This document shows positions 6,668-55,291 of a stretch of 64,000 bases of DNA, piece after piece; the first letter of the stretch is position 1; each line of letters opens with the position of its first letter. The position numbers and the translations under genes are program-made. This stretch comes from Rhynchonema sp. JSB1_4 (lineage: Eukaryota; Nematoda; Chromadorea; Monhysterida; Xyalidae): the NCBI GenBank assembly GCA_030248065.1, contig JASAMV010006270.1, forward strand, positions 1 through 64,000, read 5' to 3'. The notes under the pieces were generated by a model. It searched no databases and had not been told where the DNA came from. It worked only from the letters and a program-made list of their open reading frames with translations.

Positions 6668-7560
6668 CAGTGTTCGAACGGGATTCATTTTTAATCCCGG
6701 GATCGGGATTTCGATCAAGAAAGTGTCAGGATCGGGGTCGGAATCGGGATCCCGGTTTTGAAAACCCGGGATCCCGGGATCGGGATCGGGATTGACCAGA
6801 TAGTCCAAAAGCGATAATTTTATCATTTTATGCATAAAATGCAAGTTAATGTCACAGACAATCATGAAACATGTTTATCACACATGGATAAACAACACCA
6901 TGACCACCATGACAACAGTTCCTAGAAACTGAGTCCCTTCGTTCGATGCAATTTTGTGTAACCGTTCAGTTCTAGCTCGACCTTTTCGCGATTGGTGGTG
7001 CTTACGGTTTCATCACGCTCGGAATCAGCCGTCGAGCACCTCTTAGGGGCGCGGCAATGCAAACGCGGTTGTGGACCGCGGGTCAGCAATAATTCTATAT
7101 GTCCAATGACCGCGTTTGCATGGCCGCACTTGCGGGTCATTCGAAACATTTATTTAGCCACTACACACAAAAATGAACCAATGAGTGCTGTGCGACGTTG
7201 GCTCGACGCTGATGGGCTAATTTTTGTGTGTTGCAGCGAAATAAATGTTTCAAGTGACCCGCAAACCGCGACCAGCAAGTGCAGCCCTGCAAACACGGGG
7301 TGGTTGTTGGACATGTAGAATATTTTTCTGACCCGCGCCCGCGTTTGCATGGCCGCGCCCTTACAACAGCTTGGCGAATTATGATTGCATAATTTTTTTA
7401 CTTTTTGTTCTCAAAAGTTAATCCCTATCCCGGTACTTTTTTGGGCGCCGGATCGGGATCGGGATCGGCATTGACTTTTTCAAAATGACGGGATCGGGAT
7501 CAAAAAAAGGGCGCGGGATCCCGGGATCGGGATCGGGGTCGGAATCACGTTCGAACAGAT
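6668..7560. mobile_element. hAT family C (GGGATC-rich ends), decayed copy
   Basis: It begins cagtgttcgaacgggattc and both ends carry runs of gggatc/gatccc. It matches the complete copy at 25178-26315 but has lost the transposase C-terminal segment. Only the codons for a short N-terminal flank of that domain remain near 6920-6990 on the minus strand. The right terminus is altered and no clean TSD was found. Confidence 0.7.
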
Positions 7561-17998: not shown

Positions 17999-18287
17999 TG
18001 TTAATTATATTTCGACATAGTGTATAAGCCCCATTCAGCGATGTTTGGAGCGGGCTGGGTCGACGCCATTCTAAATGATTGTTTCAGGCATTGCCAATTC
18101 AGGCAAAGACCAATTGAACCTTGCTTGCTGCGTGGCGCAAAGACACGTGGCCTGTCATCGCACAACACCAACAATGTTCAATGGCTCTGCGCCGATTTGG
18201 CAATGCCTGAAACATTCATTTTGAATGGCGTCGACCCAGCCCGTTCCAAACATCGCTGAATGGGTTTTATATGTCGAAATTAATGAA
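17999..18287. mobile_element. Fold-back element upstream of the Lon-USP gene
   Basis: Arms of about 95 bases with cattcagcgatgtttgga on the left and its inverse on the right surround an 80-base centre. It ends about 15 bases before the first ATG of the proposed first exon, so it would form part of the promoter or 5' leader of that gene. Confidence 0.75.
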
Positions 18288-18301: not shown

Positions 18302-19132
18302 ATGAACCAGCATAATAACGCCCATTGCAAAATTTCCGCCGCGTACTTGCCCCAAAATTTCCTAATCAATTTTCAGAATCGATTTCTGTTGATATTATTT
18401 TTCGCCGCCATCATATCGGTCATCGCCGCCATCGGCGCACGAGACGGTCAACGCCAGGCGGACAAGGATTCGAACGCCAAGAAAGAGAAAGGCAAATCAG
18501 GAAAACCTAAATCAATGACAACAACAACACCAAAGCCAGGAAGTCAGGAAAATCGGCAACAGGTGGGAAATGAACTGTCTCCCGGAACTGCTCCCAGTGA
18601 AAAAAGACAAACTCAACCGAAGACAAAGACGAAAAAGACTCAAAACACTAACAAGGGACCGAATACGCCAAGAGGTGACCAACCGAATACGCCCTACAAC
18701 CTACGCATGCGAACACGACAACAAACACCGAAAGCAGTTGACCCAAGAAACGGGCCAATTGAAAATCGAAAACCTGCTGCAAACACCTTGACCACCGAAG
18801 CACTCATATCCAAATCAGAACCACCAGAAACTGCCGCAGCTAAATCAACATCAATAGTAACGAAAGGAATCGACGAATCAGATCATCAAACACCAGCTAA
18901 TCCGAAGACTCCAACATCGGCAACCGAAACACGAAAGGAAAAACTTGTCCGATGTTTGGGCCCATTTTGCCAACGGTTGGCATATCTCACCAACGGATTC
19001 AGAGAATGCAGCAAACAAGATATAATACACGAAATTGACGGTTTGGTCCAACGATCTGAATTGTCTCGACAGCAGGGAGAGGACATGAAGGCCATTTTCG
19101 ATGATCGATCGCTGGTTCGCAAGCTCAAGCAG
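18302..19132 (+). CDS. Exon 1: signal-anchor segment and basic low-complexity region
   Basis: The open frame begins with a hydrophobic run (FLLILFFAAIISVIAAIG) and continues with a Lys, Thr, Pro, Gln-rich stretch. It ends in a more structured part containing LVRCLGPFCQRLAYLTNG. A GTGGGT donor at 19133 in phase 0 fits the phase-0 acceptor at 19409. Left unspliced, the frame runs on to a stop at 19219, so it could instead be a separate secreted or membrane protein of 305 residues. A TTTTCAG acceptor near 18375 also allows an upstream first exon. Confidence 0.55.
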
Positions 19133-22100
19133 GTGGGTGGAAGAGAACTTATTGTTTTTTGGGCTGTGGACGCGCGTCGCGTTTTTCACTTCGGACCTAA
19201 AAACATTCCTACACGTTAAAAAAACAGCACAATTTCTCACACGCCAACTCGCTGTCAGGCGTTCAGAGCACCCGAATTAGGCAACGGGGTATTGGGTCCC
19301 TGTCATTCGTAAAGAGCACAATAATGCTGCAAGCCACGGCAGACCCATGGTCATATCAACGCCCATGTGAAATCCATTAGAGCCACGTTGAACAACCGAC
19401 CACTTCAGATGTTTAAACATGGCGGAAATGTGCTAATCGAGTACAGATGCAGGCCGAGTGCGTTGTCGTATCTGCGCACCGAAGAGCATGGAGAAGTGGC
19501 TCACAGGATAATCACATGCTCCACGTTGGCGTGTGCAGAGCCATATACAGACGGTAAGTACCAAATGCCAGCAGTTTTCTAGATTTTAGAAATAGCGCTG
19601 CAGATCAGACTGATTTTGTCAAACTATTCTGTGTTCGATTCGATCTAGGCAATGCTTGTCGCCGAATCCTTTGAAACGGGAACATAACCGAGCATTTTTT
19701 CACAGAGCACACGGGAAACGAAGTTCGAGAGGGCTTTCTGTTGCCACTGTTCATGTGCTGCTCCGCAATCAAGCCAGATCTTACCCTACCGGAGCTGATC
19801 ATCAAGGTCGAGCACGATGAACGTTTAGCGGTCGAAGCGACAGAGATGGCACTGCTCGCAAGGAGGATTGCTGACGCCGTGAGTTCATTCGTGATATGTG
19901 AGCACAGACACCTCACAACCGACTTAAAATATTTTTCATTCATCAACCGATAAGAACAACTTACACCGTAATTGAGAGCAAGTCTCAAATTACCCGCCAC
20001 ATGACCGCAAGAGTAACCAGCCACAAATGTTTCAGGCCAGCCCAGCCATACCTGAGGAAAACTTCAGAAGAAAATTCTTTGTCTACACACACGACATGAA
20101 CAGACTCCAAGGGGGGTCGTGCCAGATGTCCCTGGTGGGCATGATGCTCGCTCTGGTCTCTGGTCTGGTGATCGCCCCAGCGGTCGCAATAACTGCCGGT
20201 GCCACACCATATGGAGCATTACAACGTGTTAGTTTCAGGTCAATCTTTATCCGTGGTATTTTACCAATGCTTATAAAGTCATTGTGCGACCAATATCCGG
20301 GAAGAGCGGTTGTTTGAGTGCTGAATCAGAATTTCGAGTCAGTTCTGGTGTGAAACCAAAACAAACGCCCGGGACTTTCAGGAAAATCGGTAAAATGACC
20401 ATGAATGGTGTTCACCCACTTTGAGCACTTTGGGGAGGTCACGCGGCCAATGGACCAGGGATTCTGACTCCCCGTCCATGTTACTCCTGGGCAGGGTTGG
20501 GCAAAAAAAACGACGGCGTTTTTTCTTTAAAAAACCACGTTTTTTTCAGAAAAACCCGCCTGCGTCGTTTTTCGTTTTTTAAATCCTGAATTTCCTTGAT
20601 TTTCCCTGATTTTTCATGGAAAGTACCCTGATTATCAAGGAAAATCAATTTTTTTGTCCCATTTTTTTCCAAAAATTTTCGACCAATTTTTACTTTGTCG
20701 AGATACGTCGATATACGGAGTTTGACTTTCAATGATGACCCCGGCCAAAGTTGGTCCCATGATGCGGGTCTGATATGGGATCTTAACAACATGCTAGAAA
20801 AGGGTTGAAACCCGTTTATTTTGCCTCAGAACACATAGAATTACTTCATTGAACCGCGTTTTCTTCGCAACATGAGCGTTTTCCAATTTTTTTGGGGGCA
20901 TATTTTGGGCATCTGGGCGTTTCTAAAAAAACGTTTGTTAAAAAAGGTTTTTTTAAAAAAACCGGTTTTAAAAAAAACTTTTTTTGCCCAACCCTGCTCC
21001 TGGGACCAAGCTTGCAGCCAAAATCAATTTTCCACCGAGCTTCCTCTGCCCTTACAGGTCGGATTTGGCTGAAAAATCCTCAAAAATCAGCACAGGCCTA
21101 GTTATATCATCAAGCTATGTACATGAAGCACATAGTTGATTGTTTCACGCAGAGTACACACAGTACAGTAGATTACTTCATTCCTACTACTGCAGTAAAC
21201 CTCTCTTATGCGCAAATGCACAGGTTGGCTGTTGTGACGCAATGCTGTTTGCCGCCCGGAACGGCCACATCAGAAAAGTCATCGTGCCAGTTCACAACAA
21301 AGAGGACGTGGCGAGGATGAAACCAATAACCGAAGTTAGTTCAACACTGTTGTCTTCATTAATTCCTGAGATCAGAATATGACACTGATAAGCCTCTAAC
21401 TACACTTCTAGCCTACTAACTTCTGCGCTTTCAGCCGATGGCAGTCGTCCTGGCCAGAGATGCGTTCCACGGGCTGCAAGAGCTGTTCGATAACAAAATA
21501 ACGTTTGCCAATCCCTACACTACACCGCAGCCTACACTGACATCAAAGCCAGACAACGAAGGACTCGTTCGTTACGTTGTGTCACCGTTTGGTTTCGTCA
21601 AGGACAGTGTTGTAAGTTTCCTATTGCATATGCAAACATTGCTGGTGCAATGACTTCTAAAGTTATTCAGGCTTCGAACACCATGAACAAGACCACCGGC
21701 ACCCAATTGAAACAGTCGGCAAGCCAGTCGCCGGCGCATTCGGCAAGCGTGATGACGCCGCATGCGTAGGTTTCGATAGATTATTCGTTTGCAAACCTGA
21801 CGTGAATCTTTCACTTTGTAAATGCAGATTCACTTCCAAATGCAGATCTGAATCCAGTGACGTCGCTCCCGGCTACGACCTCTACTATCAGAATACAGGC
21901 ACGGACTGCTATGTGACCACCGTTTTATGGGGACTGTACACGTGCTTCAAACAACACTTGAACGGCAGGAGCGTCGAAACGGTGCGTCTAAAAATGAAAT
22001 TTTGAAATATTTCGTTCTGTTGGATTCTGCAACAGCAACTGCAGTATGTAATCTTTTGACCAGCAGGGCAAACTCACCAAGTGTTTGAACCAGCACGTGT

Positions 22101-25100
22101 TACAAACCAAACGATCAACAAAACGCGAGCAACTCCCGACTGTGACCGAGTTGCGTAAGCAATTGGACGATATTTATGGTCAGTCTACAATCGGTTTTGC
22201 ATAGTTTTGTTTGGTATTGTCACGCTTTGTTCATGGGTACCACATGTGTACACGTTCCTGACCCACAATAACCGGTAATGGAACACGTGTAGGGAGAACA
22301 AGGCAAAATGGGTTGGAAAATAGGCCCTTGAAATATTTTCAATCCCCTTCAAGGTGGATATCCTGAGGCATTTTCTTTTCGCTTAATTCTGGGCGATCCC
22401 CTGAGGCATTCTCTGTCCACTTTGCTGTGGGTCCCTGAGTTTATGTGCCATCTCCTTTACTGTGGATCCCCGGAGGTATTTTCTATCCACTTTACTGTGG
22501 GTCCCCAGAGGCAGTGGTTTTAAAAAAAAATTTTTAAAAAAAAATTCGTTTCAAAAGCTAAAAATTTTTTTTTATTATTTCAAAGTTCGAAAATTTCTCT
22601 ATTTTTTTGCACTAAAAGTGCTTTTTTTTGTATAAAAGTTGCTACTGTTGACATCACCTGACCCAACCATGGGTGTATTGGTGCCATAATCGTTGTTTTG
22701 TGGCATCTAGACGTAGTGCGCACACTCACAGGGCCTCTCATATGACTACACACGTACATGTGACTGGGTGGGCATTTATTTATCCATGCCCCAGACCCGA
22801 AAGGAGTGATTCTATTTTGTATTCACTCTGATTTCACACTATGTGCAGCTTATTTGCATTGGTCGTGTACCTAGACGTCATAATTTCACTCAAAATTCCC
22901 ATCCCGAATATCAGAAAGCCATACCATCACACCCGCACCACCTGGGGAAGGGTACGGGTGTGTACCTGACTATGGTTGGTACTTATCGACCATTGGATAG
23001 CATGGTTTTCGTATCACCTGTGCTTTATATGCACTTAGAACACATTATGTGATAACAAAAATACCCCTATTTTGTACTTGAGCGCTCATTTTTTAACGTG
23101 TTGGGCAGATTTTGACAGGAATAAAAAAAATTTTTAATTTAACAAAAAAAATTTAAAAAATGGGGTTCGAATAAAATTTTTTTATTAAAGCTGCTGGTCA
23201 ACAACCCTTCGACCGCGCTTGATCTTGGGGGTAGTATATATAAACAAAGTTTGGACATCGTGTTACTCGTCCCTAATCTGGCGAGCCGATTGGTTGCTTC
23301 CTGATGTTTCGCGGCCTCGTTGAAATTTCCCCCTGGTGAAAAAAACCGAAAAAATTTGAAACGCTGCTGTGACACGAATAGGCTGTTTCAAAGTTTGACA
23401 CCAGAGTGACAGCAACCTCCAACAGTGTGCCGAAAACCGCAATGCACAATAGCCATTGAAACGTCCGCATTGTTGAATAAAAAAATGAAAGGTTTCAGAA
23501 ACCTGGCCATTTTTTGTTAGGATATTCTACTCGTATAATTTTAAGCATCTGTGGTGAATGAAATAAGTTGTCAATTACAAATAAAAATCCCCTAATTATC
23601 AAGTTTTTTGTTTGTGCTCCCCAGTTTTCAAAACCCTACACAGCTCACACAATGTTTGCCACAACATGCGCGAGACAGCCATTCTCAAAGCACACACACA
23701 ACCACAACACACAGCCGGCACAGCGATAACACAGCAATGTTTCAGCTGGCAAGCTTTGTTGTGTGTGTGCGCTGTGGAATGGCTGCCTTGCGCATGTTGT
23801 GGTAAATATTGTGTGAGCTGTGTAGGGTTTTGAAAACTGGGGAGCACAAACAAAAAACTTGATAATTAGAGGATTTTTATTTGTAATTGACAACTTATTT
23901 CATTCACCACAGATGCTTAAAATTATATGAGTAGAAAATCCTAACAAAAAATGGCCAGGTTTCTGAAACCTTTTATTTTTTTATTAAACAATGCGGACGT
24001 TTCAATAGCTATCGTGCATTGCGGTTTTCGCCACGATGTTGGAGGTTGCTGTCACTCCAGTATCAAACTTTGAAACAGCCTATTCGTGTCACAGCAGCAG
24101 TTCAAATTTTTTCGGTCTTTTTCGCCAGGGGCAAACTTTAACGTGGCCGTGAAACATCAGGAAGCAACCAATCGGTTCGCCAGATTAGGGTCGAGTAACA
24201 CGATGTCCAAACTTTGTTAAAATATACTACCCCCCCCCAAGATCAAGCCCGGTCGAAGGGTTGTTAACCAGCACCTTTAACCACTGCCCAGAGGTACATT
24301 CAGCTTACTGCGGGTCCCCGGAGGTATTTTCTATCCACTTTACTGTGCGTCCCTGGAGGTATTTTCAATCCACTTTACTGTGGGCCCCCTGAGGTATTTT
24401 CTCAGCGGTTTTTGACGCACAGGTCTGGCCTATTATGTGCAAGAGTGAAGCGCTGTGGTTGATGACGGCATATTGAGACTCGGACAATGAGCGATCGGGT
24501 CTCACCAGCACCGACGGCACTGAGCATCATTCACGGCCACTTTCAGGCATGAAGAATTTCTCGGTGGATGAGCACAACGACATACACGACTTCTGCCACA
24601 AGTTAATCGGCAGTCAGTTGACAACCACACCCGACGGCGGTACCGCGGAACGCAACGATATGTTAACGTTTGAAGAAAGATCCGAATTTGCCCACCAGGT
24701 GAGATAAACTGGTTCAGATATGCACAAAATGGGCTCACACAACCACTGCTCTCGCAGTTGGTCGCGCGTTCGTTTTTTCAAATAACTTGGATGTTGGCGT
24801 CGGCTTACCTTTGACATTATGCTTTCTTTGGCAACCAGAGACGATGTTATTCTTTTGTGTTTACAATGTGGCAATGCAGGCAAGCGAAAGCATGAGCGTA
24901 TTCCGTCTCGTGCATTCGCGCAGTGATCGATGAATTGGTTACGACAAAAGGTGGCCCGAGCACACTAGCGGATTAAGGGCGGCCAGACGGGCCTAGGTCC
25001 TCCTCTGGCCAAAGTGGCCCCCGAGGGGCCTCCATTTTGGAGAAAAGGACCCATAAATTGCAAGATTTTCATTCTAATGTACTAGGGCCTAAAATCGTGC

Positions 25101-28100
25101 GCGTGAGCGTGAGACACACGTACTTCCATGAAATTGGCTGTCGCGCGTTGCGCTGCGCGCGCTGCTCATATTGTGAACAGTGTTCGAACGGGATTCATTT
25201 TTAATCCCGGGATCGGGATCGGGATTGTGATCAAGAAAGTGTCGGGATCGGGATCGGGATCGGGATTGACCAGATAGTCCAAAGGCAATTGTTTTTATCA
25301 TTTTGTGCATAAGATGCACGTTAATGTCACAGACAACCATGACACATGTTTATCACACATTGATAAACACCCGGAACAGTGATTAAAGCCGATTGAAAAT
25401 CGAGAATAGCTGATGACGGATAAGTTCAAAGATCATAATTGTGTCGATCAATGGCAAAGCCTTTGACAAAAAGACAAGCATTTCACCATTTTCTGGTTTC
25501 AAGCAGTATCTTTTGCTATCAAACAAATCAGCTGCACTCGAAAAGAGCTGTTCAGAAGGCACGCTCGTAAGCGGAGCGCTTAGATATTTGGAAGCTAGAC
25601 GTGCCAGTCGCGGAAACTTTGTCTCATTTGTTGCCCACCATGACATCATTTCCTCGAAACTGAGTCCCTTCGTTCGATGCAACTTTGTGTAACCGTTCAG
25701 TTCTAGAGCTCGATTTGTTCGCGATTGGTGGTGCTTGCGGTTTCATCACGCTCGGAATCAGCCGTCGAGCACCTCTTAGGGTCGCGGCCACGTAAACACG
25801 GTTGTGGGCCGCGGGTCAGCAATAATTATATGTCCAATGACCGTCATGCATAGCCGCCATTGCTGGTCGCGGTTTGCGGGTCACATGAAATATTTATTTA
25901 GCCATTACACACAAAAATGAACCAATCAGCGCTGTGCTACGGCAGTCTGCGACGTTGGCCGGATGCTGATTGGTTATTTTTTGTGTGTTGCACCCAAATA
26001 AATGTTTCAAGTGACTCGCAAACCGCGACCCGCAAGTGCGGCCTTGCAAACGCGGGGCGGTTGTTGGACATATAGAATATTTTTCTGACCCGCGACCCGC
26101 GCCCGCGTTTGCATGGCCGCGCCCTTACAACCGCTTAGCGAATTATGATTGCATAATTTTTCACTTTTTGTTCTCAAAACTTAGTCCCGATCCCGGTACT
26201 TTTTTGGTCGGGATCGGGATCGGGATTGACTTTTTCAAAATGACGGGATCGGGATCGGGATCGGGATCAGAAAAAGGGCCCGGGATCCCGGGATCGGGAT
26301 CCCGTTCGAACACTGATTGTGAATAGTATTTGGCTTAAAATAGCCCATTTGTGAACAAGCGCTGGATAAAAACGGTTTTTGACAAATCAAACATGCACTA
26401 GACAAAAATGACCAACATCACTGCACTGAGTACATTGTAACTTCACTATTTCAACTGCTTATTTCGATTCCGACATTTTCTTGATCCCAATCCCGATCCC
26501 GGGATTAAAAATGAATCCCGTTCGAGCACTGCTGACGAACCCTGGCGCCTCGGTCTGCCTGCGAAAGTAGGGCGAAACAGACCAACATTACTGCACTCAG
26601 TACATTGTGAGTTCACCATGTGCCCGGCTTGTAGTGGCTCTTTGCCCTCACAATGCACAGATGTGACGAAACTCTGTTTACCAGAGTTTGCCCACAGTGA
26701 TGTTACAGCCCAGCAATAAAAGCTGCTGGTGGGACTTTTGGGAGGCAAATTTGCCAGAGGCGTTCGCACGGACGTGCGCCATGACGCCTCGGTCTGTCTG
26801 TCAAAGCAGGGCGAAACAGACCAACGTTACTGCACTTAGAATTTGCCTCCTGTGCCGAAAGCTGGATCCGCCACTGCACGAGCATATAATGTAGAACCGT
26901 GCGATCTCACCGCCGAAGCTCCACAGCACGATGTGTGGGCTGATCGCGCAATGCTGGCGTCCGTAAAAAATATTTCAGGTGGTAAGTATGACCCAGCATA
27001 TGGTCTGCGTCAGGCTTGGTCGGGTGTGGTCGGAGGTGCAAATAAGTTGGATGATTATCTTGCGATTTTGCTGTTTCTGCGATTTCTGACTTCACTATGT
27101 GCACTGCTTGTAGTGGCTCTGCCCTCGCCATGCACAGATGTCACGGAGCACTGTTTATGAGTTTGCACGCAGTGATGTGACAGCCCAGCAATAAGATCTG
27201 CTGGTGGGGCTTTTTGGCGGCAAATTTTTGAGAGGCGCTCGCACTGACGAGCCCTGGCGCCTCGGTCTGTCTGCCAAAGCAGGGCGAAACAGACCAACAT
27301 TACTATACAAGTACATTTTCGCAAGCACTTCAGGAAAGCGCTCAGCCTCAAATCTGTCGTTTGGAAATTACGTTAACAGAGCAAGTGTGTTTAAGTACGT
27401 GGTCCACATAAAGTGCGTGCTGGCTGCAACAGCACAGCATAGGCCACCAGGCAGGGAGGGGCCTGCTTTTCAATCCGAGCCACACACAATTGGACACTAA
27501 GATGTGAAGGGCACGGCCGCAACAGTTTGGCCATATTAATGGGGATGTATGCACATTAATGTGAAATGTAGCTTATTGACATTGCGCCCGTTTTCGTGAA
27601 TACACCTCAAAATGTTGCTTATGGACGCACGCAATGTGCGAACAATCCAAACATCGTGCGGGAGAGAGTTTTGGCTGCTGGAGGTCGGGGTTGTACATAT
27701 GCCTTTGTCGTGACCAATTCATCGATCAATGCGAACGCACAAGCCGGAATAACGTCATCCTTTCGCATGCTGCCACTTTGCAAACACCATAGTGCTAATG
27801 GTACAGTCGTCAACTCAAGTAGTTAACTCTCGTCGTCAACTAAAGCAGCCCTAAATGAGCGCAAAAAATGTACTGGGAGTTGACGGTTGCCGACAGTGCT
27901 ATAAGCCCACCAAAGTAGTGACGATTTAAAAAAAACATTTTAAAGCAATTGGAGTTGCGCCGCTGCTCGAACGCGAAATGTAAGAAGGTTGATTTGTACA
28001 ATCTGGGTGAGGGAAACGTACTCGAGTTGATTAGACCGTCGAATGATCACGATGAACCGGCTTCAATCCACGACTTGATGGCACTAAAAGATCATCAATT

Positions 28101-29302
28101 CAGGTATGTATGTACAGTATATACTTGCTGTTTGCAATATGCTTTATTCAAACACGTTCTTCGTACACCCAAAGTATGATTTGCACTGCTCTGGATCTCA
28201 TATTAAACCGCAAAGCGGTGAATGCCAATCAGATGTGATAAACTCTTTTGTGGCAAGGGTCAAAATTTTCGAAAGCGCAACCGTCACCGAGAGCGCTGCG
28301 CCCCCAAACATGATGGTGACAACTTCCAGCTGCTTGACCTCAACTTGCTGCGTGCTCACGCGCGCGAACAGCAAGGCTGTGCAACGCACGCGCGCTTTTT
28401 GAACAAAATGGAATTTACACGCACCGAGGTGGATGGCGTCAGATATATAAAATACACTGTTGCGCAACCGCCTCCGGTGACGGTGGCGCTTTCGAGAATG
28501 TGGGCCAATGACTTAATTATCTTTGCGCAGCACCACATATTCTTTGCGCAGATGTCGAGAATGCGACACAACGACCGTTGCCCCGCGTGTTGAGCGTGGA
28601 ATCAGGCAAGATCAACCCGGTGGTCGATTTGTGATCGCAACAACGCGAATCTACGATGTGATCGATGGAAAACGGGTGTTCTTAACGAAGCCAATTACGG
28701 GATTGACCAAGACCAACAACAAATTGGGTGTGTGCGCCACGAATTCGTACGAGTAAGTCAAATCGAGTTGTTGTTCCTACGAATACCCAGTGCAGGCTCA
28801 TTGAGCTTTTATTTGGATAGAATGGTTGAGCCATAGATGTAGTAGTCAAAGATCAATAAGGGTGGAGTTCACAAAACGGTTGAGTGGAGAGTTCAGTGGA
28901 AAACATTACCACTGTATTCATCCTACCAAACTTTGTTTTCCACAGAACTTCCCATTCAACTGTCCACTTAAACGAATCGTGAATTCCACCCGATGAGCGA
29001 TATATTGAGACCCAGTTTGATATTCCCACTTTAGTGTCAAAGGCGTGGTTGTCTATCAACCGGGCATCGCCGACATCGCGGTTGATCAGTGGTTTGACGA
29101 AAAGACCGGGAAGAAGTGCGGCAATTACGACTACCCATCCGGCCACTACGTCATTTACGTTCCAAGCAGCACGGGCTGGTTGGAGCTGAACGACATGAGC
29201 AACGGGGCGGTGTCGCTAACGGACAAACAGGCAAACGGTCTATTTTTGAACCATTTGCACAATGTGGTGATGATATTTTTCGAAAAGTCAAATAGCAATT
29301 AA
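18302..29302 (+). CDS. Predicted Lon-type (S16) / ubiquitin-specific protease (C19) fusion protein
   Basis: Fourteen exons join without a phase conflict into 988 codons plus TAA: 18302-19132, 19409-19553, 19706-19878, 20036-20227, 21224-21334, 21435-21611, 21671-21765, 21846-21981, 22064-22178, 24547-24698, 27946-28103, 28233-28499, 28606-28752, 29035-29302. Residues 28-45 are a hydrophobic signal/anchor segment, followed by a Lys/Thr/Pro-rich linker. About 278-510 resembles the Lon proteolytic fold. About 585-988 has the USP Cys box, finger CxxxxC, and His box. Cys596, Asn591, His937 and Asp953 match the USP catalytic positions, so deubiquitinase activity is plausible. The Lon serine is kept (Ser411) but the lysine position holds Asp452. 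Introns are loaded with transposons. Membership of exon 1 is the weakest part; exons 2-14 alone give 711 residues. Confidence 0.65.
19409..21611 (+). CDS. Exons 2-6: Lon (S16)-like proteolytic fold
   Basis: Exon 2 matches the start of the Lon P-domain: GGNVLIEYRCRP, then TEEHGEV where Lon has TG.LGEV. Exon 4 carries the serine block as QGGSCQMSLVGMMLALVSG, against KDGPSAG-type sequence in Lon, followed by VAITAGAT. Exon 5 (VGCCDAMLFAARNGHIRKVI) aligns with VGGIKEKLLAA.RAGI..VI; the nucleophile-partner lysine is Asp here. VPVHNKEDV matches the IP.EN..DL segment. Exon 3 adds about 58 residues absent from bacterial Lon. No AAA+ ATPase domain precedes it. A proteolytically dead, scaffold-like Lon fold is the likely reading, by inference. 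Confidence 0.65.
20492..20996. mobile_element. hAT-type family B element in intron 4 of the Lon-USP gene
   Basis: Ends cagggttgggcaaaa and inverse. The exact 8-base TSD ctcctggg flanks it (20484-20491 and 20997-21004). It is about 90 percent alike to 8502-8974 by eye over the central part. Confidence 0.88.
21671..22178 (+). CDS. Exons 7-9: linker and USP Cys box
   Basis: Exon 7 is a Ser/Thr/Gln-rich linker. Exon 8 holds the USP Cys box (YYQNTGTDCYVTTVLWGLYT). It keeps the oxyanion asparagine five residues before the cysteine, while the usual Gly-Asn-Thr before Cys reads Gly-Thr-Asp. Exon 9 is helical and basic. Its acceptor could lie at 22064 or 22067 without changing phase. Confidence 0.7.
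22345..24410. repeat. Intronic minisatellite, split by a hAT element
   Basis: Degenerate units of roughly 35-45 bases containing ccactttactgtgggtccc and ggaggtattttc occupy 22345-22511 and resume at 24287-24410. The two halves are continuous once the inserted element 22512-24286 is removed. Confidence 0.75.
22512..24286. mobile_element. hAT-type element with CAGTGGTT ends, containing a giant fold-back
   Basis: Starts cagtggttttaaaa and ends tttaaccactg. The 8-base TSD cccagagg is exact on both sides (22504-22511, 24287-24294). Within it, 23197-23700 and 23770-24280 are inverted copies about 500 bases long around a loop of some 60 bases. It is therefore a hAT-sized fold-back without transposase, lying in intron 9 of the Lon-USP gene. 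Confidence 0.85.
24547..28499 (+). CDS. Exons 10-12 of the gene: USP QQDAHEF-like helix and zinc-finger region
   Basis: Exon 24547-24698 has SVDEHNDIHDFCHKLIG in the place of the USP QQDAHEF helix. Exon 27946-28103 begins QLELRRCSNAKCKKVDLYNL, the first finger strand, with a C-x4-C pair. Exon 28233-28499 begins with a second Cys pair, then has an extra stretch of about 55 residues, and ends VRYIKYTVAQPPPVTVALSR, the USP strand usually written as ++..lPp.L.i.L.R. The intron between the first two (3.2 kb) contains a hAT element. Splicing 24698 to 27946 directly gives the expected USP spacing, so frames at 26840 and 27572 were left out. Confidence 0.65.
24834..24960 (-). repeat. Inverted partial copy of 27700-27795
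   Basis: Read on the minus strand, this segment shares ccaattcatcgatca and several following blocks with 27700-27795. Both lie in the same long-intron region of the Lon-USP gene. It shows that the open frame at 27572-27826 is at least partly repeat-derived. Confidence 0.6.
25178..26315 (-). mobile_element. hAT family C element with partial transposase
   Basis: Ends cagtgttcgaacggg and inverse. The TSD attgtgaa is exact (25170-25177 and 26316-26323). Sub-terminal arrays of gggatc give the ends strong self-complementarity. It encodes the C-terminal dimerisation domain of a hAT transposase (next entry) and little else, so it is an internally deleted copy. It lies in the 3.2-kb intron of the Lon-USP gene. 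Confidence 0.9.
25383..25682 (-). pseudogene. hAT transposase C-terminal dimerisation domain (remnant)
   Basis: The frame contains MSWWATNETKFPRLARLASK, then LSAPLTSVPSEQLFSSAADL, the classic hATC signature (WW......P.LA..A...L..P.TSV.SE..FS). The DDE catalytic core and BED finger are missing, so no active enzyme is made from this copy. Confidence 0.85.
26440..27310. repeat. Hybrid repeat region: hAT family C end and three gcgcctcggtctg units
   Basis: At 26470-26531 a lone right end of the GGGATC hAT family remains. A unit containing gcgcctcggtctgtctg and agggcgaaacagaccaac occurs at about 26540, 26785 and 27250. Between units are short unrelated stretches, one with an exon-like open frame (26840-26981) whose phase does not fit its neighbours. 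Confidence 0.55.
27803..27930. mobile_element. MITE with CAGTCGTCAA ends, intronic copy
   Basis: The left end tacagtcgtcaactcaa and right block gacagtgctataagcccac match the element at 15575-15705. It ends about 16 bases before the polypurine and acceptor of exon 27946. Confidence 0.5.
28606..29302 (+). CDS. Last two exons: USP catalytic His box and C terminus
   Basis: Exon 28606-28752 continues the palm strands. Exon 29035-29302 contains GVVVYQPG, then SGHYVIYVPSSTGWLELND, the USP C-terminal His box with the following Asn-Asp, and closes VVMIFFEKSNSN before TAA. Phase 2 is kept across the junction. The gap in conserved sequence between YQPG and SGHY is longer than usual (about 25 residues). 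Confidence 0.75.
28860..28991. mobile_element. Short inverted-repeat element in the last intron
   Basis: Ends gggtggagttcacaaaa and its inverse (cgtgaattccaccc) define a 132-bp MITE sharing termini with 15809-16350. It fills nearly half of the intron. Confidence 0.65.
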
Positions 29303-33700: not shown

Positions 33701-34635
33701 TTCATTCTTTTCCATGTTGGGACGCTGGGATTTGAGCAAAATACATATGTTGAGGAAAGCGGACTTTTGCTGTTCTTGATTGTTTGCCCTTCGGCTCTTC
33801 GGGCTGGTTTGTGTGTGCGAGAGAGAGAGAGAGAGTTATACATACGAGCCTTTACATACCATCTTTTTTCACCTGTTCCATGAACTTATTGTAGTAGTCG
33901 GACAACAGGGCTGGGAATCGAGAGCTCTCCATGCCAGAAACGAACAGCAGCATGCCCAAATCCAATATTGGATTGCCGCGATGCGATAGCTGAAACGGAA
34001 ACAATAAACCAAGGGGAAGAATTGCTGAAGAAAAAGAAGACATTAAACTACATACGGGAAACGGAAACACTGTTGAAGAAACCTGAGACATGAAACTGTC
34101 GAAAACGGAAACATTGCTGAACAAAGTGGAAACATAAAACTATATAAACTGGGAACATGGCTTATAGAACACGGATGCACTGCTGATGCAATCGGAAACA
34201 TTGCCGATGAAGGCGAAAACACTACTGATGAAAACGGAAACTCTGCTGACAAAAACGGAAACAACGCTGATGGAAGCGGAAATATTGCGAACGAAAATGG
34301 GAACATTGCTGGGGGAAACGGAAGCATTGGTGATGAAGACCGAAACACCGTTGGCGAAAACGTAAGCACGGTTGAAAACGGAAACACTGCCGATGAAGAA
34401 CGAAAAAGTAAATAAAGTGAAATATTGAAAAGGCATCCAAGAACGCGTTTGTCTTTTATCTCCACCTCCATGGAGCTCGGGCGTGTCACAAACCTGCCAA
34501 TCGACAAACGCGCGAATATCACTGGTCGGCTGGCTGTGTCCATCCAGTCGAAACATCACATTTCCGCCATGCATATCACCATGCACCAAACAGTCCGGCA
34601 CACCGGCCGGGCCGAGAATAAGGCAGTCGAGAGAT
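30718..34635 (-). CDS. CHK/ecdysteroid-kinase-like protein, 3' part, four exons
   Basis: Minus-strand exons 34635-34494, 33989-33860, 33541-33371 and 30866-30718 join in phases 0, 1, 1. Exon 1 contains the kinase-like catalytic loop CLVHGDMHGGNVMF followed by IRAFVDWQ, the Brenner-type HGD....N and the metal-binding D of the choline/ecdysteroid kinase-like superfamily. Exon 2 continues SHRGNPILDLGMLLF, also typical. The N-terminal lobe with the ATP-binding lysine was not found upstream, so the gene is 5'-partial or truncated. The family is expanded in nematodes and insects and acts on small-molecule substrates; the substrate here is unknown. The first intron is a minisatellite and the last (2.5 kb) holds nested transposons. 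Confidence 0.7.
31800..33213. mobile_element. hAT-type family A element with internal fold-back
   Basis: Ends cagggttggattt and aacccaaccctg, with exact TSD ggtctatc (31792-31799 and 33214-33221). Ends match 5036-5824. The interior 32210-32880 is a separate inverted repeat with arms of about 300 bases that share an open frame (next entry). Total 1414 bp. Confidence 0.88.
32210..32880. repeat. Fold-back with matching open frames in both arms
   Basis: Both arms can be read from their outer ends inward to give MRPGDALQE followed by a similar 25-residue stretch (DQPNFYQRIQA and DQPNLYLRIQA). The arms differ by several substitutions. No family was recognised. It may be a captured exon duplicated in inverse orientation. 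Confidence 0.55.
34000..34425. repeat. Degenerate intronic minisatellite (aacggaaacattgctgatga)
   Basis: A unit of about 25-30 bases containing cggaaac and a gctgatga-like tail repeats some 15 times. It fills the first intron (33990-34493) of the kinase-like gene. Open frames across it are by-products. Confidence 0.75.
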
Positions 34636-34939
34636 CTGGACCCAGTTACTTCGGGCGGGGGGGGGGGGGGGTGGTGGCCCCACATTCATCTTTCTATCGT
34701 CTTTCCGCATAATTTCCTGCTTTTAACCCCCCAAAAACAGCATGTTTTCACAAATTAGGACATCAATTTTTGCCGACCCTCAAATTCCCGGGTCCCAGTC
34801 ATCTATTATCAACACACTGGCCAAGTACCACACTTTCGTCCTGATGTCACGTCTGATTTGGTGCGAAGAATGAAAAATACAGTTTATTTGAAAAATGTTT
34901 GCAGCAATTCAGGCAAAGTAATTTAATAAACGCACCCGA

Positions 34940-37912: not shown

Positions 37913-40900
37913 GCCATCAAGGGCTGCATAAAACCATAGGGGTCCCGCTCTCCAGAATTCAATCGGCGCCATCAACGACTGCATAAAACCATAGGGGTCC
38001 CGCTGTCCAGAATTCAATCGGCGCCATCAACGACAGTGCAAAACCATAGGGGTCCCGCTGACCAGAATTCAATCGGTGCTATCAACGACTGCATAAAACC
38101 ATAGGGGTCCCGCTGTCCAGAATTCAATCGGCGCCATCAACAACAGTGCAAAACCATAGGGGTCCCGCTGTCCAAAAGTCAATCGGCGCCATCAACGGCT
38201 GCTTAAAACCATAGGGGTTCCGCTAGAAAGAATTCAATCGGCGCCATCAACGACAGTGCAAAACCATAAAGGTCCCGCTGTCCAAAATTCAATCGGCGCC
38301 GTCAACGACTGCATAAAATTATAGGGGTCCCGCTGGCCAGAATTCAATCGGCGCCATCAACGACAGTGTAAAACCATACGGGTCCCGCTTTCCAGAAATC
38401 AATCGGCGCCATCAACGACTGCATAATACCATAAGGGTCCCGCTGTCCAGAATTCAATCGGCGCCATCAACAACAGCGCAAAACCATAGGGCTCCCGCTG
38501 TCCAAAATTCAATCGGCGCCGTCAGCGACTGCATAAAACCATAGGGGTCCCGCTGGCCAGAATTCAATCGGCGCCATCAACGACAGTGTAAAACCATTGG
38601 GGTCCCGCTGTCCAAAATTCAATCGGCGCCATCAACGACTGCATAAAACCATTGGGGTCCCGCTCTCCAAAATTCAGTCGGCGGCATCACCGACTGCGTA
38701 AAACCATAGGGGTCCCGCTGTCCGCAATTATATCGGCGCCATTAGCGACCGCGCAAAACCGTAGGGGTCCCGCTGTCCACAATTCAATCGGCGCCATTAA
38801 CGACCGCGCAAAACCGTAGGGGTCCCGCAGAATTCAATCGGCGCCATCAACGACTGCATAAACCCATAGGGGTCCCGCTGTCCAGAATTCAATCGGCGCC
38901 ATCAACGACAGTGTAAAACCATAGGGGTCCCGCTGTCCAAGATTCAATCGGCGCCATGAACGACTGCATAACCCGCTGTCCAGAATTCAATCGGCCCATC
39001 AACGACTGCATAAAACCATTGGGGTCCCGCTGTCCAAAATTCAATCGGCGCCATCAACGACTGCATAAAACCATTGGGGTCCCGCTGGCCAGAATTCAAT
39101 CGGCGCCCTCAACGACTGCATAAAACCATAGGGGTCCCGCTGTCCAGAATTCAATCGGCGCCATCAACAACAGCGCAAAACCATAGGGGTCCCGCTGTCC
39201 AAAATTCAATCGGCGCCATCAACGACCGTATAAAACCATAGGGGTCCCGCTGTCCAAAATTCAATCGGCGCCATCACCGACTGCGTAAAACCATAGGGGT
39301 CCCGCTGTCGAGAATTCAATCGGCGCCATCAACGACTGCATAAAACCATAGGGGTCCCGCTGTCCGGAATTCAATCGGCGCCATCAGCGACAGTGTAAAA
39401 CCATAGGGGTCCCGCTGTCCAGAATTCAATCGGCGCCATCAGCGACAGTGTAAAACCATAGGGGTCCCGCTGTCCAATATTTAATCGGCGCCATCAACGA
39501 CTGCATATAACCATATAGGTCCCGCTGTCCAGAATACAATCGGCGCCATCAACAACAGTGCAAAACCATACGGGTCCCGCTTTCCAGAAATCAATCGGCG
39601 CCATCAACGACTGCATAAAACCATAAGGGTCCCGCTGTCCGGAATTCAATCGGCGCCATCAACAACAGCGCAAAACCATAGGGCTCCCGCTGTCCAAAAT
39701 TCAATCGGCACCGTCAGCAACTGCATAAAACCATAGGGTCCCGCTGGCCAGAATTCAATCGGCGCCATCAACGACAGTGTAAAACCATACGGGTCCCGCT
39801 TTCCAGAAATCAATCGGCGCCATCAACGACTGCATAATACCATAAGGGTCCCGCTGTCCAGAATTCAATCGGCGCCATCAACAACAGCGCAAAACCATAG
39901 GGCTCCCGCTGTCCAAAATTCAATCGGCGCCGTCAGCGACTGCATAAAACCATAGGGGTCCCGCTGGCCAGAATTCAATCGGCGCCATCAACGACAGTGT
40001 AAAACCATTGGGGTCCCGCTGTCCAAAATTCAATCGGCGCCATCAACGACTGCATAAAACCATTGGGGTCCCGCTCTCCAAAATTCAGTCGGCGGCATCA
40101 CCGACTGCGTAAAACCATAGGGGTCCCGCTGTCCACAATTATATCGGCGCCATTAGCGACCGCGCAAAACCGTAGGGGTCCCGCTGTCCACAATTCAATC
40201 GGCGCCATTAACGACCGCGCAAAACCGTAGGGGTCCCGCAGAATTCAATCGGCGCCATCAACGACTGCATAAACCCATAGGGGTCCCGCTGTCCAGAATT
40301 CAATCGGCGCCATCAACGACAGTGTAAAACCATAGGGGTCCCGCTGTCCAAGATTCAATCGGCGCCATGAACGACTGCATAACCCGCTGTCCAGAATTCA
40401 ATCGGCCCATCAACGACTGCATAAAACCATTGGGGTCCCGCTGTCCAAAATTCAATCGGCGCCATCAACGACTGCATAAAACCATTGGGGTCCCGCTCTT
40501 CAAAATTCAGTCGGCGGCATCACCGACTGCGTAAAACCATAGGGGTCCCGCTGTCCACAATTATATCGGCGCCATTAGCGACCGCGCAAAACCGTAGGGG
40601 TCCCGCTGTCCAGAATTCAAACGGCGCCATCAACGACTGCATAAAACCATAGGGGTCCCGCTGTCTAATATTCAATCGGCGCCATCAACGACTGCATAAA
40701 ACCATTGGGGTCCCGCTGGCCAGAATTCAATCGGCGCCCTCAACGACTGCATAAAACCATAGGGGTCCCGCTGTCCAGAATTCAATCGGCGCCATCAACA
40801 ACAGCGCAAAACCATAGGGGTCCCGCTGTCCAAAATTCAATCGGCGCCATCAACGACCGTATAAAACCATAGGGGTCCCGCTGTCCAAAATTCAATCGGC

Positions 40901-41619
40901 GCCATCACCGACTGCGTAAAACCATAGGGGTCCCGCTGTCGAGAATTCAATCGGCGCCATCAACGACTGCATAAAACCATAGGGGTCCCGCTGTCCGGAA
41001 TTTAATCGGCGCCATCAACGACCGTATAAAGCCATAGGGGTCCCGCTGTCCAAAATTCAATCGGCACCATCAACGACTGCATAAAACCATAGGGGTCCCG
41101 CTGTCCAAAATTCAATCGGCGCCATCAACGACCGTATAAAACCATAGGGTTCCCGCTGTCCAAAATTCAATCGGCGCCATCACCGACTGCGTAAAACCAT
41201 AAGGGTCCCGCTGTCCAGAATTCAATCGGCACCATCAACGACTGCATAAAACCATAGGGGCCCCGCTGTCCGGAATTTAATCGGCGCCATCAACGTCAGT
41301 GTAAAACCATAGGGGTCCCGCTGTCCAGAATTCAATCGGCGCCATCAACGACTGCATAAAACCATAGGGGTCCCGCTGGCCAGAATTCAATCGGCGCCAT
41401 CAACGACAGTGTAAAACCATAGGGGTCCCGCTGTCCAAAATTCAATCGGCGCCATTAACGACTACATAAAACCATTGGGGTCCCGTTCTCCAAAATTCAA
41501 TCGGCGGCATCACCGACTGCGTAAAACCATAGGGGTCCCGCTGTCCACAATTCAATCGGCGCCATTAGCGACCGCGCAAAACCGTAGGGGTCCCGCAGAA
41601 TTCAATCGGCGCCATCAAC
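37913..41619. repeat. 55-bp satellite array, left block
   Basis: About 67 head-to-tail copies of a 55-base unit containing ccataggggtcccgctgtcc, gaattcaatcggcgcc and atcaacgactgcataaaa. Variant positions recur in blocks: a segment beginning 38361 reappears at 39772 (offset 1411), including the same shortened units (tcccgcagaattc; gcataacccgctg). This shows higher-order duplication. Because 55 is not a multiple of 3, frames shift from unit to unit; the array is not coding. Confidence 0.95.
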
Positions 41620-41624
41620 GACTG

Positions 41625-42764: not shown

Positions 42765-42769
42765 GACTG

Positions 42770-43995
42770 CATAAAACCATAGGGGTCCCGCTGTCCAGAA
42801 TTCAATCGGCGCCATCAACGACTGCATAAAAGCATAGGGGCCCCGCTGTCCAGAATTCAATCGGCGCCATCAACGACTGCATAAAACCATAGGGGTCCCG
42901 CTGTCCAGAATTCAATCGGCGCCATCAACAACAGCGCAAAACCATAGGGGTCCCGCTATCTAGAATTCAATCGGCGCCATCAACGACAGTGTAAAACCAT
43001 AGGGGTCCCGCTGTCCAGAATTCAATCGGCGCCATCAACAACAGTGCAAAACCATAGGGGTCCCGCTGTCCAGAATTCAATCGGCGCCATCAACAACAGT
43101 GCAAAACCATAGGGGTCCCGCTGTCCAGAATTCAAGCGGCGCCATCAACGACTGCATGAAACCATAGGGGTCCCGCTGTCCAGAATTCAATCGGCGCCAT
43201 CAACGACTGCATAAAAGCATAGGGGCCCCGCTGTCCAGAATTCAATCGGCGCCATCAACGACTGCATAAAACCATAGGGGTCCCGCTGTCCAGAATTCAA
43301 TCGGCGCCATCAACAACAGCGCAAAACCATAGGGGTCCCGCTATCTAGAATTCAATCGGCGCCATCAACGACAGTGTAAAACCATAGGGGTCCCGCTATC
43401 TAGAATTCAATCGGCGCCATCAACGACAGTGTAAAACCATAGGGGTCCCGCTGTCCAGAATTCAATCGGCGCCATCAACGACAGTGTAAAACCATAGGGC
43501 TCCCGCTGTCCAAAATTCAATCGGCACCGTCAGCGACTGCATAAAACCATAGGGGTCCCGCTGTCCAGAATTCAATCGGCGCCATCAACGACTGCATAAA
43601 ACCATTGGGGTCCCGCTGACCAGAATTCACGCGGCGCCATCAGCGACTGCATAAAACCATAGGGGTCCCGCTGTACAAAATTCGATCGGCGGCATCGACG
43701 ACTGCATAAAACCATAGGGGTCCCGCTGTCCAGAATTCAATCAGCGCCATTAGCAACTGCGCAAAGCCATGGGGGTCCCGCTGTCCAGAATTCAATCGGC
43801 GCTATCAACAACAGTGTAAAACCATAAAGGTCCCGCTGTCCAAAATTCAATCGGCGCCGTCAACGACTGCATAAAACAATGGGGTCCCGCTGTCCAGAAT
43901 TCAATCGGTGCTATCAACGACAATGTAAAACCATAGGAGTCCCGCCGTCCAGAATTTAATCGACGCCAAGAACGAGTGACGTAAAACAAAACCGC
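42770..43995. repeat. 55-bp satellite array, right block
   Basis: About 22 further units of the same satellite. A five-unit block is repeated (42770-43090 against 43140-43400, e.g. gcataaaagcataggggcccc). Units decay toward the right edge near 43990. Confidence 0.95.
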
Positions 43996-48674: not shown

Positions 48675-49105
48675 TTTGGTTGGTCGAAGTTGGTCGAAAT
48701 TCGCGAAACGAAAAATCACAAAATATCGTCAAAATCGCACTTTTCCGAATTTTTGCAGAAGTCGTAGACAGGTCGATACAGACTTTTGTTCGGCGAATCA
48801 GGTATCGTTGCAGTTCTTGTCGGTCGCTCCAACTTTTGATCACAATATCAGGCGATTACAGTACAACACGAATCGATCAGAACCTTCAAAAATGACGCAA
48901 AATCGCACTTTTTGACACTCAACAATTTTTATTTCGCTCAAATCGCCTTTATTCGCGCTGAAATACCGCTGAATAGATGACAGACGTTGAGAAGAACGAT
49001 GCTCACCACAAACGAAATGACGGTTGACGTTGATGTTAATTAAAAGAAAGTGAAATCCAAGAAATTCCGAAAAATTGTGAACTCTGAACCGCCACACCAA
49101 ACGTA

Positions 49106-49188
49106 TGCTCCCGGAAGGACTCGAACCTCCGACCTCCCAGCCACCAGGCCTGGACAGCCAGTTGCTCTACCAACTGAGCTACGGGAAC
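49106..49188 (-). tRNA. tRNA-like gene in LTR composite, copy 1
   Basis: The acceptor gttcccg/cgggagc pairs fully. D arm gctcagttggtagagc and T arm ggaggttcgagtcctt match Pol III boxes A and B. The body resembles a normal tRNA up to the anticodon stem (actggctgt), but the expected closing strand is replaced by ccaggcctggtggctggg, so no seven-base anticodon loop forms. It is 83 bases long. tRNA-derived; decoding function is doubtful. Confidence 0.65.
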
Positions 49189-49642
49189 GCGGTCTGGCTG
49201 CGGCTCAAAGTTGCACTTATACCCATGCAACCGTGCAGACACACACTGCTTTGCACGCCACACGCTACACGTTGCGCTGGCTAGCAGACTTCCAGTCCAC
49301 ACATCCTCCCATTCACGGAAGGTTTGACCTCAAACCTGCGGGTTTCCACCCGTCTTTTCTCCGAACCAGCGCTCTCAGTCGTGTCCCGCCACACGCAGGC
49401 ACTTGCGACCCAACCCTGAATACGGCAGGATTGTCGCTGCGCACTTCCCTTTCCACAGGCAAGCACTCGCGGGCTTTGACCCACAAGGGGCTAACCGCTC
49501 GCACCTCGTGTCCCACACGATAGCGCCACCTCCCTCTTTCAGAAGGTCTGACCCCAGACCGGCTCCTTGGCCGTGACTGCGGGTTGGTTCATCTCAACTT
49601 GGGCTCACCAATTGTGAACTCTGAACCGCCACACCAAACGTA

Positions 49643-49725
49643 TGCTCCCGGAAGGACTCGAACCTCCGACCTCCCAGCCACCAGGCCTGGACAGCCAGTT
49701 GCTCTACCAACTGAGCTACGGGAAC
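49643..49725 (-). tRNA. tRNA-like gene in LTR composite, copy 2
   Basis: Identical by eye to copy 1. It sits in a direct repeat of about 225 bases (49076-49300 and 49613-49838) that runs from gtgaactctgaaccgcc to cttccagtccac. It lies in the loop of the right palindrome, so it has no inverted partner of its own. Confidence 0.65.
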
Positions 49726-49838: not shown

Positions 49839-51106
49839 AAATTTCAATTTTTCTCGAAATCCGTCCAAATCGTTTCGATCCTTTTGCAAATGCACTCAGA
49901 AGAATAAGAAACTGAAGATCTCCAATCGACAAAGCAACACAAGCACAGGAACCAGTAGATCAGGTCAAAAAGACGCAAATGAAAAGTTGACTTTTGTCGA
50001 AATTCAGAACGAGGTCGAAATCAGTCGATGTTGTACGTTGCGCGTCGAGTCGAATACCAGATTGTAGAGCGTCTCACGCTGGTTCTTTTGATGTGTCACT
50101 CGTCCGTCCAGACCACTTTACACGAGACAAAACAAAAATCAAAAAATTATCGATCACGGGTAAATTCTACCCCAACGAACAAAAAAACAATTTTTATTTT
50201 ATATCAAATCACGTTGATCGGCACTGAAGTCGTGTTTTATGCGCAGTACTTGTTGTCAGCTACGATGTGGAATTGAATTGAAGAAGTTAACAGTTGATGC
50301 CGAAAAGAATGGACGCGTTGAAGGTCATAAAATATCCAAAAATCGTTAAAAAACGGTCTCACAACAAACAGATCAGCTGATGTTTCAAAAGTGCCAATAT
50401 CGTGTCGCCGTCGATTGTAGCAGTTGCAGCAGTGTCCAACCGTTGTGTTGATGCCGAAATCCAATCTCGTTCGATTCACCAAACACAAAAACAATCAACT
50501 CCAAAAATCGTCAAAATTACTTTTCACTCCACTTTCGCACTTCGTCGGCCAAAATCTATGTCAAAAAATCAGCGAAAAAAATGGCCAGGGGTCTGCCTTG
50601 GAAAAATGGGCAGAGTTCTGTCGAAAACTGGTTAATAGACCACCGGGAACACGATGCAACTCTCCAAACTCGACCCCCAGACAATCGTCACTTTTCGGCC
50701 CAGACGGACGTTCGATGCGATGTTTGTCGTTTTTCGACGTGTTGGCTGATGAAGCGATGATTTGTTGCGCTGATTTGAAGACGTCGAAGGTACCAGCACT
50801 CTAACAGCTCCCCTTACACTGCACGCGACCTAGACCTGCGGCGGTTTCGGTCCTTTTGTGCCTCACACAGGACCAGCTGTTAGAGCTGGCGTTGCTGCGG
50901 TTGAAGATGACGGTCGTAGCAGTTGCCGTAGACGCTGTCGCGGTTGTCGCGGTGCTCGTTGCTTCGGTTGGCTCACCTCGGACGGTCGAAATCTCAAACG
51001 AAAAACAAGTTTTAGGTTGATGAAAATTGCAAAAATCCCCAAAATAGCCCCCAAACTCTACAAAATCTGCTCCTTTAAGGTCGAAGGTCGCGATGGCAAG
51101 CCCAAC
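49839..51106. other. Loop of the right palindrome
   Basis: Mostly unique sequence without a recognised domain. Frames up to 126 codons exist on both strands but lack motifs. A gt-rich cgg repeat lies near 50910-50960. Confidence 0.4.
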
Positions 51107-51395
51107 AAAGCCCGCGAGTGCTTGCCTGTGGAAAGGGAAGTGCGCAGCGACAATCCTGCCGTATTCAGGGTTGGGTCGCAAGTGCCTGCGTGTGGCGGGA
51201 CACGACTGAGAGCGCTGGTTCGGAGAAAAGACGGGTGGAAACCCGCAGGTTTGAGGTCAAACCTTCCGTGAATGGGAGGATGTGTGGACTGGAAGTCTGC
51301 TAGCCAGCGCAACGTGTAGCGTGTGGCGTGCAAAGCAGTGTGTGTCTGCACGGTTGCATGGGTATAAGTGCAACTTTGAGCCGCAGCCAGACCGC

Positions 51396-51478
51396 GTTCC
51401 CGTAGCTCAGTTGGTAGAGCAACTGGCTGTCCAGGCCTGGTGGCTGGGAGGTCGGAGGTTCGAGTCCTTCCGGGAGCA
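51396..51478 (+). tRNA. tRNA-like gene in LTR composite, copy 3
   Basis: Inverted counterpart of copy 1 in the opposite palindrome arm. The same 83-base sequence with the same aberrant anticodon region, showing that the change predates the palindrome. Confidence 0.65.
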
Positions 51479-51909
51479 TACGTTTGGTGTGGCGGTTCAG
51501 AGTTCACAATTTTTCGGAATTTCTTGGATTTCACTTTCTTTTAATTAACATCAACGTCAACCGTCATTTCGTTTGTGGTGAGCATCGTTCTTCTCAACGT
51601 CTGTCATCTATTCAGCGGTATTTCAGCGCGAATAAAGGCGATTTGAGCGAAATAAAAATTGTTGAGTGTCAAAAAGTGCGATTTTGCGTCATTTTTGAAG
51701 GTTCTGATCGATTCGTGTTGTACTGTAATCGCCTGATATTGTGATCAAAAGTTGGAGCGACCGACAAGAACTGCAACGATACCTGATTCGCCGAACAAAA
51801 GTCTGTATCGACCTGTCTACGACTTCTGCAAAAATTCGGAAAAGTGCGATTTTGACGATATTTTGTGATTTTTCGTTTCGCGAATTTCGACCAACTTCGA
51901 CCAACCAAA

Positions 51910-53679: not shown

Positions 53680-54060
53680 CTGTAGTGACGAATCCCCATG
53701 TGGCCTTGGAATGCAAAGCAGTGTAACGTGACTTTACTAAATATCACATGATTCATTGTATTTTGTCTACACACATTCTATCAGCTTATTTCCTGTGTGC
53801 TTGTGCTTGTGAGCTTCAGAGTTGGTAACGTGGTTTATGTGTGCCTTTGGAATAAAGTGTGTTATGAAGCAAAGACAGTTTCACATTATCTGGCATCCAT
53901 ACGTCGTGAAACTGTGAGACGCCGCCCGTGAAAATTTGAGACCGGTGTCTATGTGCATCTTTACGCTGAACGTTACTTTTCGGCCCCAACTACTAAAGTG
54001 AAATTGTGAAAAATTGTGAAATTTGACTGGAAATTATTGCGAATTTCGACGATTTCGACA

Positions 54061-55274: not shown

Positions 55275-55291
55275 CGCAACGATGCTGGTTC

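Follow-up and report, generated by a model that had tools for sequence, protein, structure and literature searches.

A Lon-derived domain ahead of a USP-like domain in one predicted nematode protein

Can a Lon-type proteolytic fold and a ubiquitin-specific protease (USP) belong to one and the same protein? The question is raised by a locus in the nematode Rhynchonema sp. JSB1_4 (assembly GCA_030248065.1, contig JASAMV010006270.1), of which we analysed a stretch of 64,000 nucleotides at the start of a contig of 69,962 bp, hereafter the window. The genome contains 57 matches to the cuticle-collagen family Col_cuticle_N, in keeping with a nematode, and a search for pectate lyase found none, its control being silent as well. 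Between 18302 and 29302 on its + strand, an earlier note made from the letters alone had seen exons for a Lon P-domain-like region followed by exons for a USP domain, and had proposed a single secreted or membrane-anchored protein combining a Lon-like binding module with deubiquitinase activity. With moderate confidence, we read the locus as encoding a single protein: a copy of a Lon P domain, most likely of LONP2 type, lacks its lysine and any AAA+ module that we could find, and is fused ahead of a divergent USP domain with its catalytic residues.

Rebuilt from open frames and splice sites, the gene consists of 13 exons that together encode 922 residues with no internal stop. All 12 introns have GT-AG borders and compatible phases, and their lengths range from 59 to 3247 bp. 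The co-oriented, in-phase exons described earlier are therefore confirmed, with the Lon-like region at 19409-21611 and the USP-like stretch running from 21828 or 21846 to 29302, as an alternative acceptor of exon 8 at 21845 is equally compatible in phase. The earlier count of 13 consecutive junctions is probably one too high: the true gene probably has 13 exons and 12 junctions, since the stretch 28233-28499 is a miniature inverted-repeat transposable element (MITE). The exons are as follows.

18302-19132, + strand: exon 1, residues 1-277; open frame with a GT donor at 19133
19409-19553, + strand: exon 2, residues 278-325; start of the Lon P-like region
19706-19878, + strand: exon 3, residues 326-383; Lon-like with an apparent insert, ending in phase 0
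20036-20227, + strand: exon 4, residues 384-447; Lon_C core with S411 (codon 20117-20119), GGSCQ in place of GPSAG
21224-21334, + strand: exon 5, residues 448-484; Lon_C core with Met454 at the place of the lysine; 37 codons with phase 0 on either side
21435-21611, + strand: exon 6, residues 485-543; end of the Lon-like region and linker
21671-21765, + strand: exon 7, residues 544-574; linker joining the two halves, phases compatible
21828-21981, + strand: exon 8, from residue 575; USP Cys box with N597 and C602 (codon 21907-21909)
22067-22178, + strand: exon 9, USP-like
24547-24698, + strand: exon 10, USP-like, with HNDIHDF as a box resembling QQDAHEF
27946-28103, + strand: exon 11, USP fingers with the first Cys pair, C721/C726 (CX4C)
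28552-28752, + strand: exon 12, with the second Cys pair C768/C771 (in FRCREC, which spans the junction) plus the strand FVIATTRIYDV
29035-29302, + strand: exon 13, USP His box with H871 (codon 29144-29146), N886/D887, the final strand and the TAA stop codon

Is the first half Lon? The earlier note had suggested profile searches for Lon_C (S16) and for UCH (C19), and the first of these returned a match above the Pfam cut-off of 21.1 bits: Lon_C is found at residues 409-479 (profile positions 109-179 of 205) with 25.5 bits and E=1.1e-5. The match scores 24.8 bits in a scan of the whole 922-residue protein and 27.2 bits on the Lon region alone. Among sequences in the PDB, the best matches of the Lon half are protease La homolog chains (1z0c, E=0.0035, and its kin, which we take to be archaeal LonB) and the Lon protease 1rr9, all with E between 0.0035 and 0.0051. 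As judged from these comparisons and those described below, the Lon half is genuine Lon-derived sequence, and its descent from Lon is well supported.

Of the Ser-Lys dyad that a Lon protease of family S16 requires, the serine is present (S411) and the lysine is replaced. The place of the lysine that we take to be catalytic is occupied by Met454 (codon 21242-21244), with VGCCDAML standing for VGGIKSKV and no gaps at this position against either 1z0c or the Lon gene on contig C3479 of the same genome. Pfam scans of the 922-residue protein and of a 310-residue open reading frame (ORF) over exon 1 found no AAA+ module; the DNA further upstream was not scanned. Because the lysine is a methionine and no AAA+ match was found, the Lon half is most likely a pseudoprotease that cuts nothing, which agrees with the earlier proposal of a binding module rather than a protease.

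Where could this Lon half have come from? A genome-wide family search with Lon_C (E up to 0.001) found matches elsewhere on two contigs, C1735 and C3479. A Walker A motif and a terminal NKL are present in the ORFs of C3479, and this gene is presumably a peroxisomal LONP2. Its core aligns with that of the window gene over 71 residues free of gaps, with a score of 54; shuffling the two core exons 1000 times never gave this score (best 50), nor did 500 shuffles of the whole region.

The exon structure is shared as well. An intron lies before VGC in the window gene and before VGG in the C3479 Lon, at the same codon, in phase 0 and 37 residues past the serine in both, and the exon that follows spans 37 codons in each gene, with phase 0 on either side, its end in C3479 being our reading. 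A third intron, again in phase 0, interrupts the loop that precedes the core in both genes, the two positions being 5 residues apart when measured as distance to the serine. By comparison, the C1735 Lon reads through VGG and is intron-free there. Outside the reach of the computed alignment, we matched GGNVLIEY of exon 2 visually to GGHVMMVE in the C3479 Lon.

That the window gene shares an ancestor with a true Lon gene is thus backed by one intron at exactly the same place, a second by exon length, a third in the same loop and the shuffle test. The simplest reading of these likenesses would be descent from a C3479-type gene, so that an origin of the Lon half from a LONP2-type gene is most likely. 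The shared intron points to duplication of a Lon gene in the worm's own lineage followed by fusion, rather than to horizontal transfer or chance likeness. Compared with the C3479 Lon, with which it shares the P-domain core, the VGG intron, the 37-codon exon and the phase-0 loop intron, the window protein has methionine for lysine, an extra insert in its first half and no AAA+ match that we found.

Next, we turn to the second half. The residues that we take, by USP7 numbering, to be the oxyanion N597, the catalytic C602 and H871, and N886/D887 occur in the order typical of USPs, and the closing strand is in place. The order of the Cys box, the QQD-like box, the candidate finger Cys pairs, the RF-like strand and the His box is the same as in USP/UCH deubiquitinases (C19), whereas the window half differs from them in its CX4C finger pair, in the Lon domain in front and in staying below the Pfam cut-off unless a loop is cut. 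The first finger pair (C721/C726) is CX4C instead of CXXC, and the second (C768/C771) is CXXC.

With E up to 10 allowed, the unaltered USP half matches UCH and no other Pfam family, and the reversed sequence of this half has no Pfam match. When we excised a loop of 24 residues ahead of the His box and also trimmed the ends, an alteration of our own, UCH rose to 24.3 bits, with profile positions 4-236 in order; the altered sequence further matches, weakly, Peptidase_C98 (E=0.054), likewise a ubiquitin-like-protease family. Taken together, these features give fair grounds for assigning the second half to the USPs, and its residues suggest a probable deubiquitinase activity.

The model with 14 exons, in which 28233-28499 is counted as an exon, was rejected since this stretch is a MITE inside intron 11. 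The inverted ends of the element pair at 23 of 25 positions, its interior resembles two further stretches of the window at 76-77%, and it belongs to a family of about 245 bp with at least 57 match rows, its own included, when 28104-28551 was searched against the genome (40 of the 798 first-look candidates being scored). The motif PPPVTVALSR within it looks like the USP motif LPxxLxxxLxRF and is really the inverted end of the MITE. As the acceptor of the false exon and that of exon 12 are in the same phase, removal of the MITE keeps the frame and creates the USP-like finger pair FRCREC. The UCH match changes from 15.4 bits (E=0.014) with the MITE to 17.2 bits (E=0.0041) without it, while the matched profile stretch shrinks from 4-233 to 4-140. 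The UCH search suggested by the earlier note gave a match, but one under the cut-off of 23.9 bits in either form.

The MITE is one of several repeats found within introns of the gene.

28233-28499, + strand: MITE and not an exon, with 25-bp inverted ends at 28265-28289 and 28475-28499; genome matches span 28253-28514
28848-28994, no strand assigned: second repeat element, lying in the last intron (28753-29034)
25386-25742, - strand: hAT transposase dimerisation remnant (Pfam, 7.6e-18), inside intron 10 and not part of the gene

Intron 9 holds a 458-bp inverted repeat, 93% complementary, at 23227-24234. A DNA search of exons 2-4 (19409-20227) in the worm's own genome returned the self match alone. 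Likewise, a genome DNA search with exons 12-13 (28552-29302) found no other exon copy, and its 33 further match rows all lie in the last intron, at the second repeat element listed above. Thus, sequences of introns 11 and 12 have copies elsewhere in the genome, unlike the searched exons 2-4 and 12-13.

To score coding potential, we used a codon model trained on 1289 codons from 21 exon pieces, with stop-free non-coding sequences as controls. The in-frame score is the best of the six frames in 11 of the 13 exons, largely because the other frames hold stops. It lies above the control mean in 12 exons and above the control 95% point in six. The false exon scores 1.8 in its frame, no worse than several true exons.

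A number of results speak against our reading of the locus as a Lon-USP protein. The coding score of exon 1 is far below the control mean, with no codon-use signal. No protein-database homologue was found among 8000 candidates scored at E up to 0.01 or among 3101 at E up to 0.1, both with a query that included the false exon, nor among 1844 at E up to 0.1. For the Lon half, the window exons are absent from the genome-wide Lon_C listing at E up to 0.001, and a tblastn search on seven Lon loci gave a best E of 0.10. The end of the 37-codon exon in C3479 is an inferred donor, as the frame stays open past it (ORF 7128-7502), although the residues beyond do not look Lon-like.

The USP half, at 17.2 bits, falls short of the UCH cut-off in its unaltered form; UCH is unlisted in the Pfam scan of the whole 922-residue protein, and neither part of the half matched it when scanned alone. 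With home-made profiles of the two boxes (one of the 11 rows used to train the His-box profile is an obvious false catch that was retained), the window gene ranked 118 of 2001 among shuffles and outside the top 6 of 2666 window ORFs for the Cys box. For the His box the signal was weak: the gene came first among the 2666 window ORFs (E 0.91) and 13th of 2001 against shuffles. A PDB search of the half with the false exon included returned 39 sequences, all Mdm2 (best E 0.22) and none named USP. Ordinary USPs are many in this genome (at least 75 UCH match rows among 121 candidates scored), and the window's USP exons are absent from that UCH listing at E up to 0.001. Finally, when 39 Lon and USP loci were searched by tblastn with the USP half, the best E, 0.068, fell at a USP locus with no clear USP alignment, and a His-box piece came up at E 0.49.

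Do the two halves share a transcript? Exons 6 and 7 are separated by an intron of 59 bp and exons 7 and 8 by one of 62 bp, and neither AATAAA nor ATTAAA occurs between the halves (21600-21840). Such short gaps with no polyadenylation-type signal leave little room for the end of one gene and the start of another, and both halves are likely to be part of one mature mRNA. The alternative is a pair of neighbouring genes, perhaps an operon pair, in which a Lon-like gene stops beyond 21611, a USP gene begins beyond 21671, and nothing but the gene model links the two. Exon 7 does have an in-frame ATG (ACC ATG AAC), reading beyond 21611 reaches a TGA within 14 codons, and there is no known reason for Lon and USP domains to occur together. 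Nonetheless, we consider two genes unlikely: the 59 bp would be all that lies between them, no polyadenylation-type signal is present, and splice sites and phases are compatible across both introns. In addition, the 204-Mb genome has no exact copy of the 22-mer of the SL1 leader, and no Rfam SL1 match was found, a search in which the controls likewise gave no signal. The earlier note's view that a single reading frame holds a Lon-derived module next to a USP-like domain is supported.

It is also possible, at a small probability, that the second half is an unrelated sequence that mimics a USP. UCH stays under its curated cut-off and is unlisted for the whole protein, the box profiles are weak, no PDB match is named USP and the first finger pair is CX4C instead of CXXC. 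Against mimicry, UCH is the only Pfam family matched by the unaltered half, the loop-cut half spans profile positions 4-236 in order, and N597, C602, H871 and N886 are in place together with the closing strand.

A decaying pseudogene of an older fusion, to which the strong divergence of both halves, the lost Lon lysine, the many transposons in introns and a codon signal that is weak in exon 1 and in roughly half of the rest would lend themselves, is improbable given 922 stop-free codons, 12 of 12 GT-AG introns in phase, the kept USP catalytic residues and the confinement of repeats to introns in the stretches tested.

What might such a fused protein do? The USP half would remove ubiquitin by means of Cys602, His871 and Asn886, while the dead Lon half would aim the USP half through docking or oligomer formation. 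The protein may sit on a membrane via a hydrophobic stretch near its N-terminus. Exon 1 is made up of this stretch, a low-complexity region rich in K, T, P and N, and a short folded-looking end; a profile scan found no Pfam family above cut-off in it. The most hydrophobic stretch of the protein is residues 28-46 (hydropathy 2.86), so that the feature behind the earlier proposal of a secreted or membrane-anchored protein is present. The location itself is uncertain, because an acceptor-like TTTTCAG at 18370-18376, near the N-terminus of exon 1, and an inverted-repeat element at 18023-18271, ending 30 bp before the ATG, make the N-terminus uncertain: the first 25 residues may be intronic and the first exon may lie further upstream. 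USP30, a membrane-anchored USP, also has a hydrophobic stretch before its USP domain, a likeness of general layout, and differs from the window protein in that it is not known to carry a Lon domain.

LONRF proteins likewise bring a Lon-derived part into the ubiquitin system. There, the Lon N-terminal domain is combined with a RING ligase, whereas here it is the C-terminal proteolytic fold that precedes a probable deubiquitinase; Pfam scans of the window protein list no match to RING or to the LON substrate-binding domain. Among the titles and abstract openings returned by literature searches aimed at the Lon/USP pairing, none describes it. Both domains are of known kinds, and their pairing is, as far as could be seen, a new combination. 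If the locus does encode one protein, then a bacterial-type Lon fold that is normally fed by an AAA+ motor would have become a catalytically dead binding module within the ubiquitin system, which raises the testable question of the partners that a Lon P domain may bind when it does not cut. Going further, we tentatively suggest, at slightly less than an even chance, that such deubiquitinases form a class restricted to nematodes, whose USP is aimed or oligomerised, possibly at a membrane, by a dead Lon P domain with no motor, one duplicated from a LONP2-type gene along with its exon structure.

Elsewhere in the window, a phosphotransferase or ecdysteroid-kinase-like gene fragment lies at 34143-34685 on the - strand (APH 1e-4 and EcKL 1.7e-4, both just under cut-off). 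It is followed by a 55-bp satellite array in two blocks, at 37913-41624 (about 68 copies) and 42765-43987 (about 22 copies). Three tRNA copies of equal score are found at 49106-49188 (- strand), 49643-49725 (- strand) and 51396-51478 (+ strand), and near-identical ORFs lie on opposite strands at about 49044-49523 and 51058-51540, which suggests an inverted duplication of this region. Finally, an ORF on the - strand at 52302-53033 matches the Phlebovirus G2 fusion glycoprotein (8.9e-60), and a BEL/Pao retroelement adjoins it on the opposite strand (54010-57970, + strand), with Peptidase_A17 (3e-41), DUF1759 (1.2e-9) and parts of an integrase.

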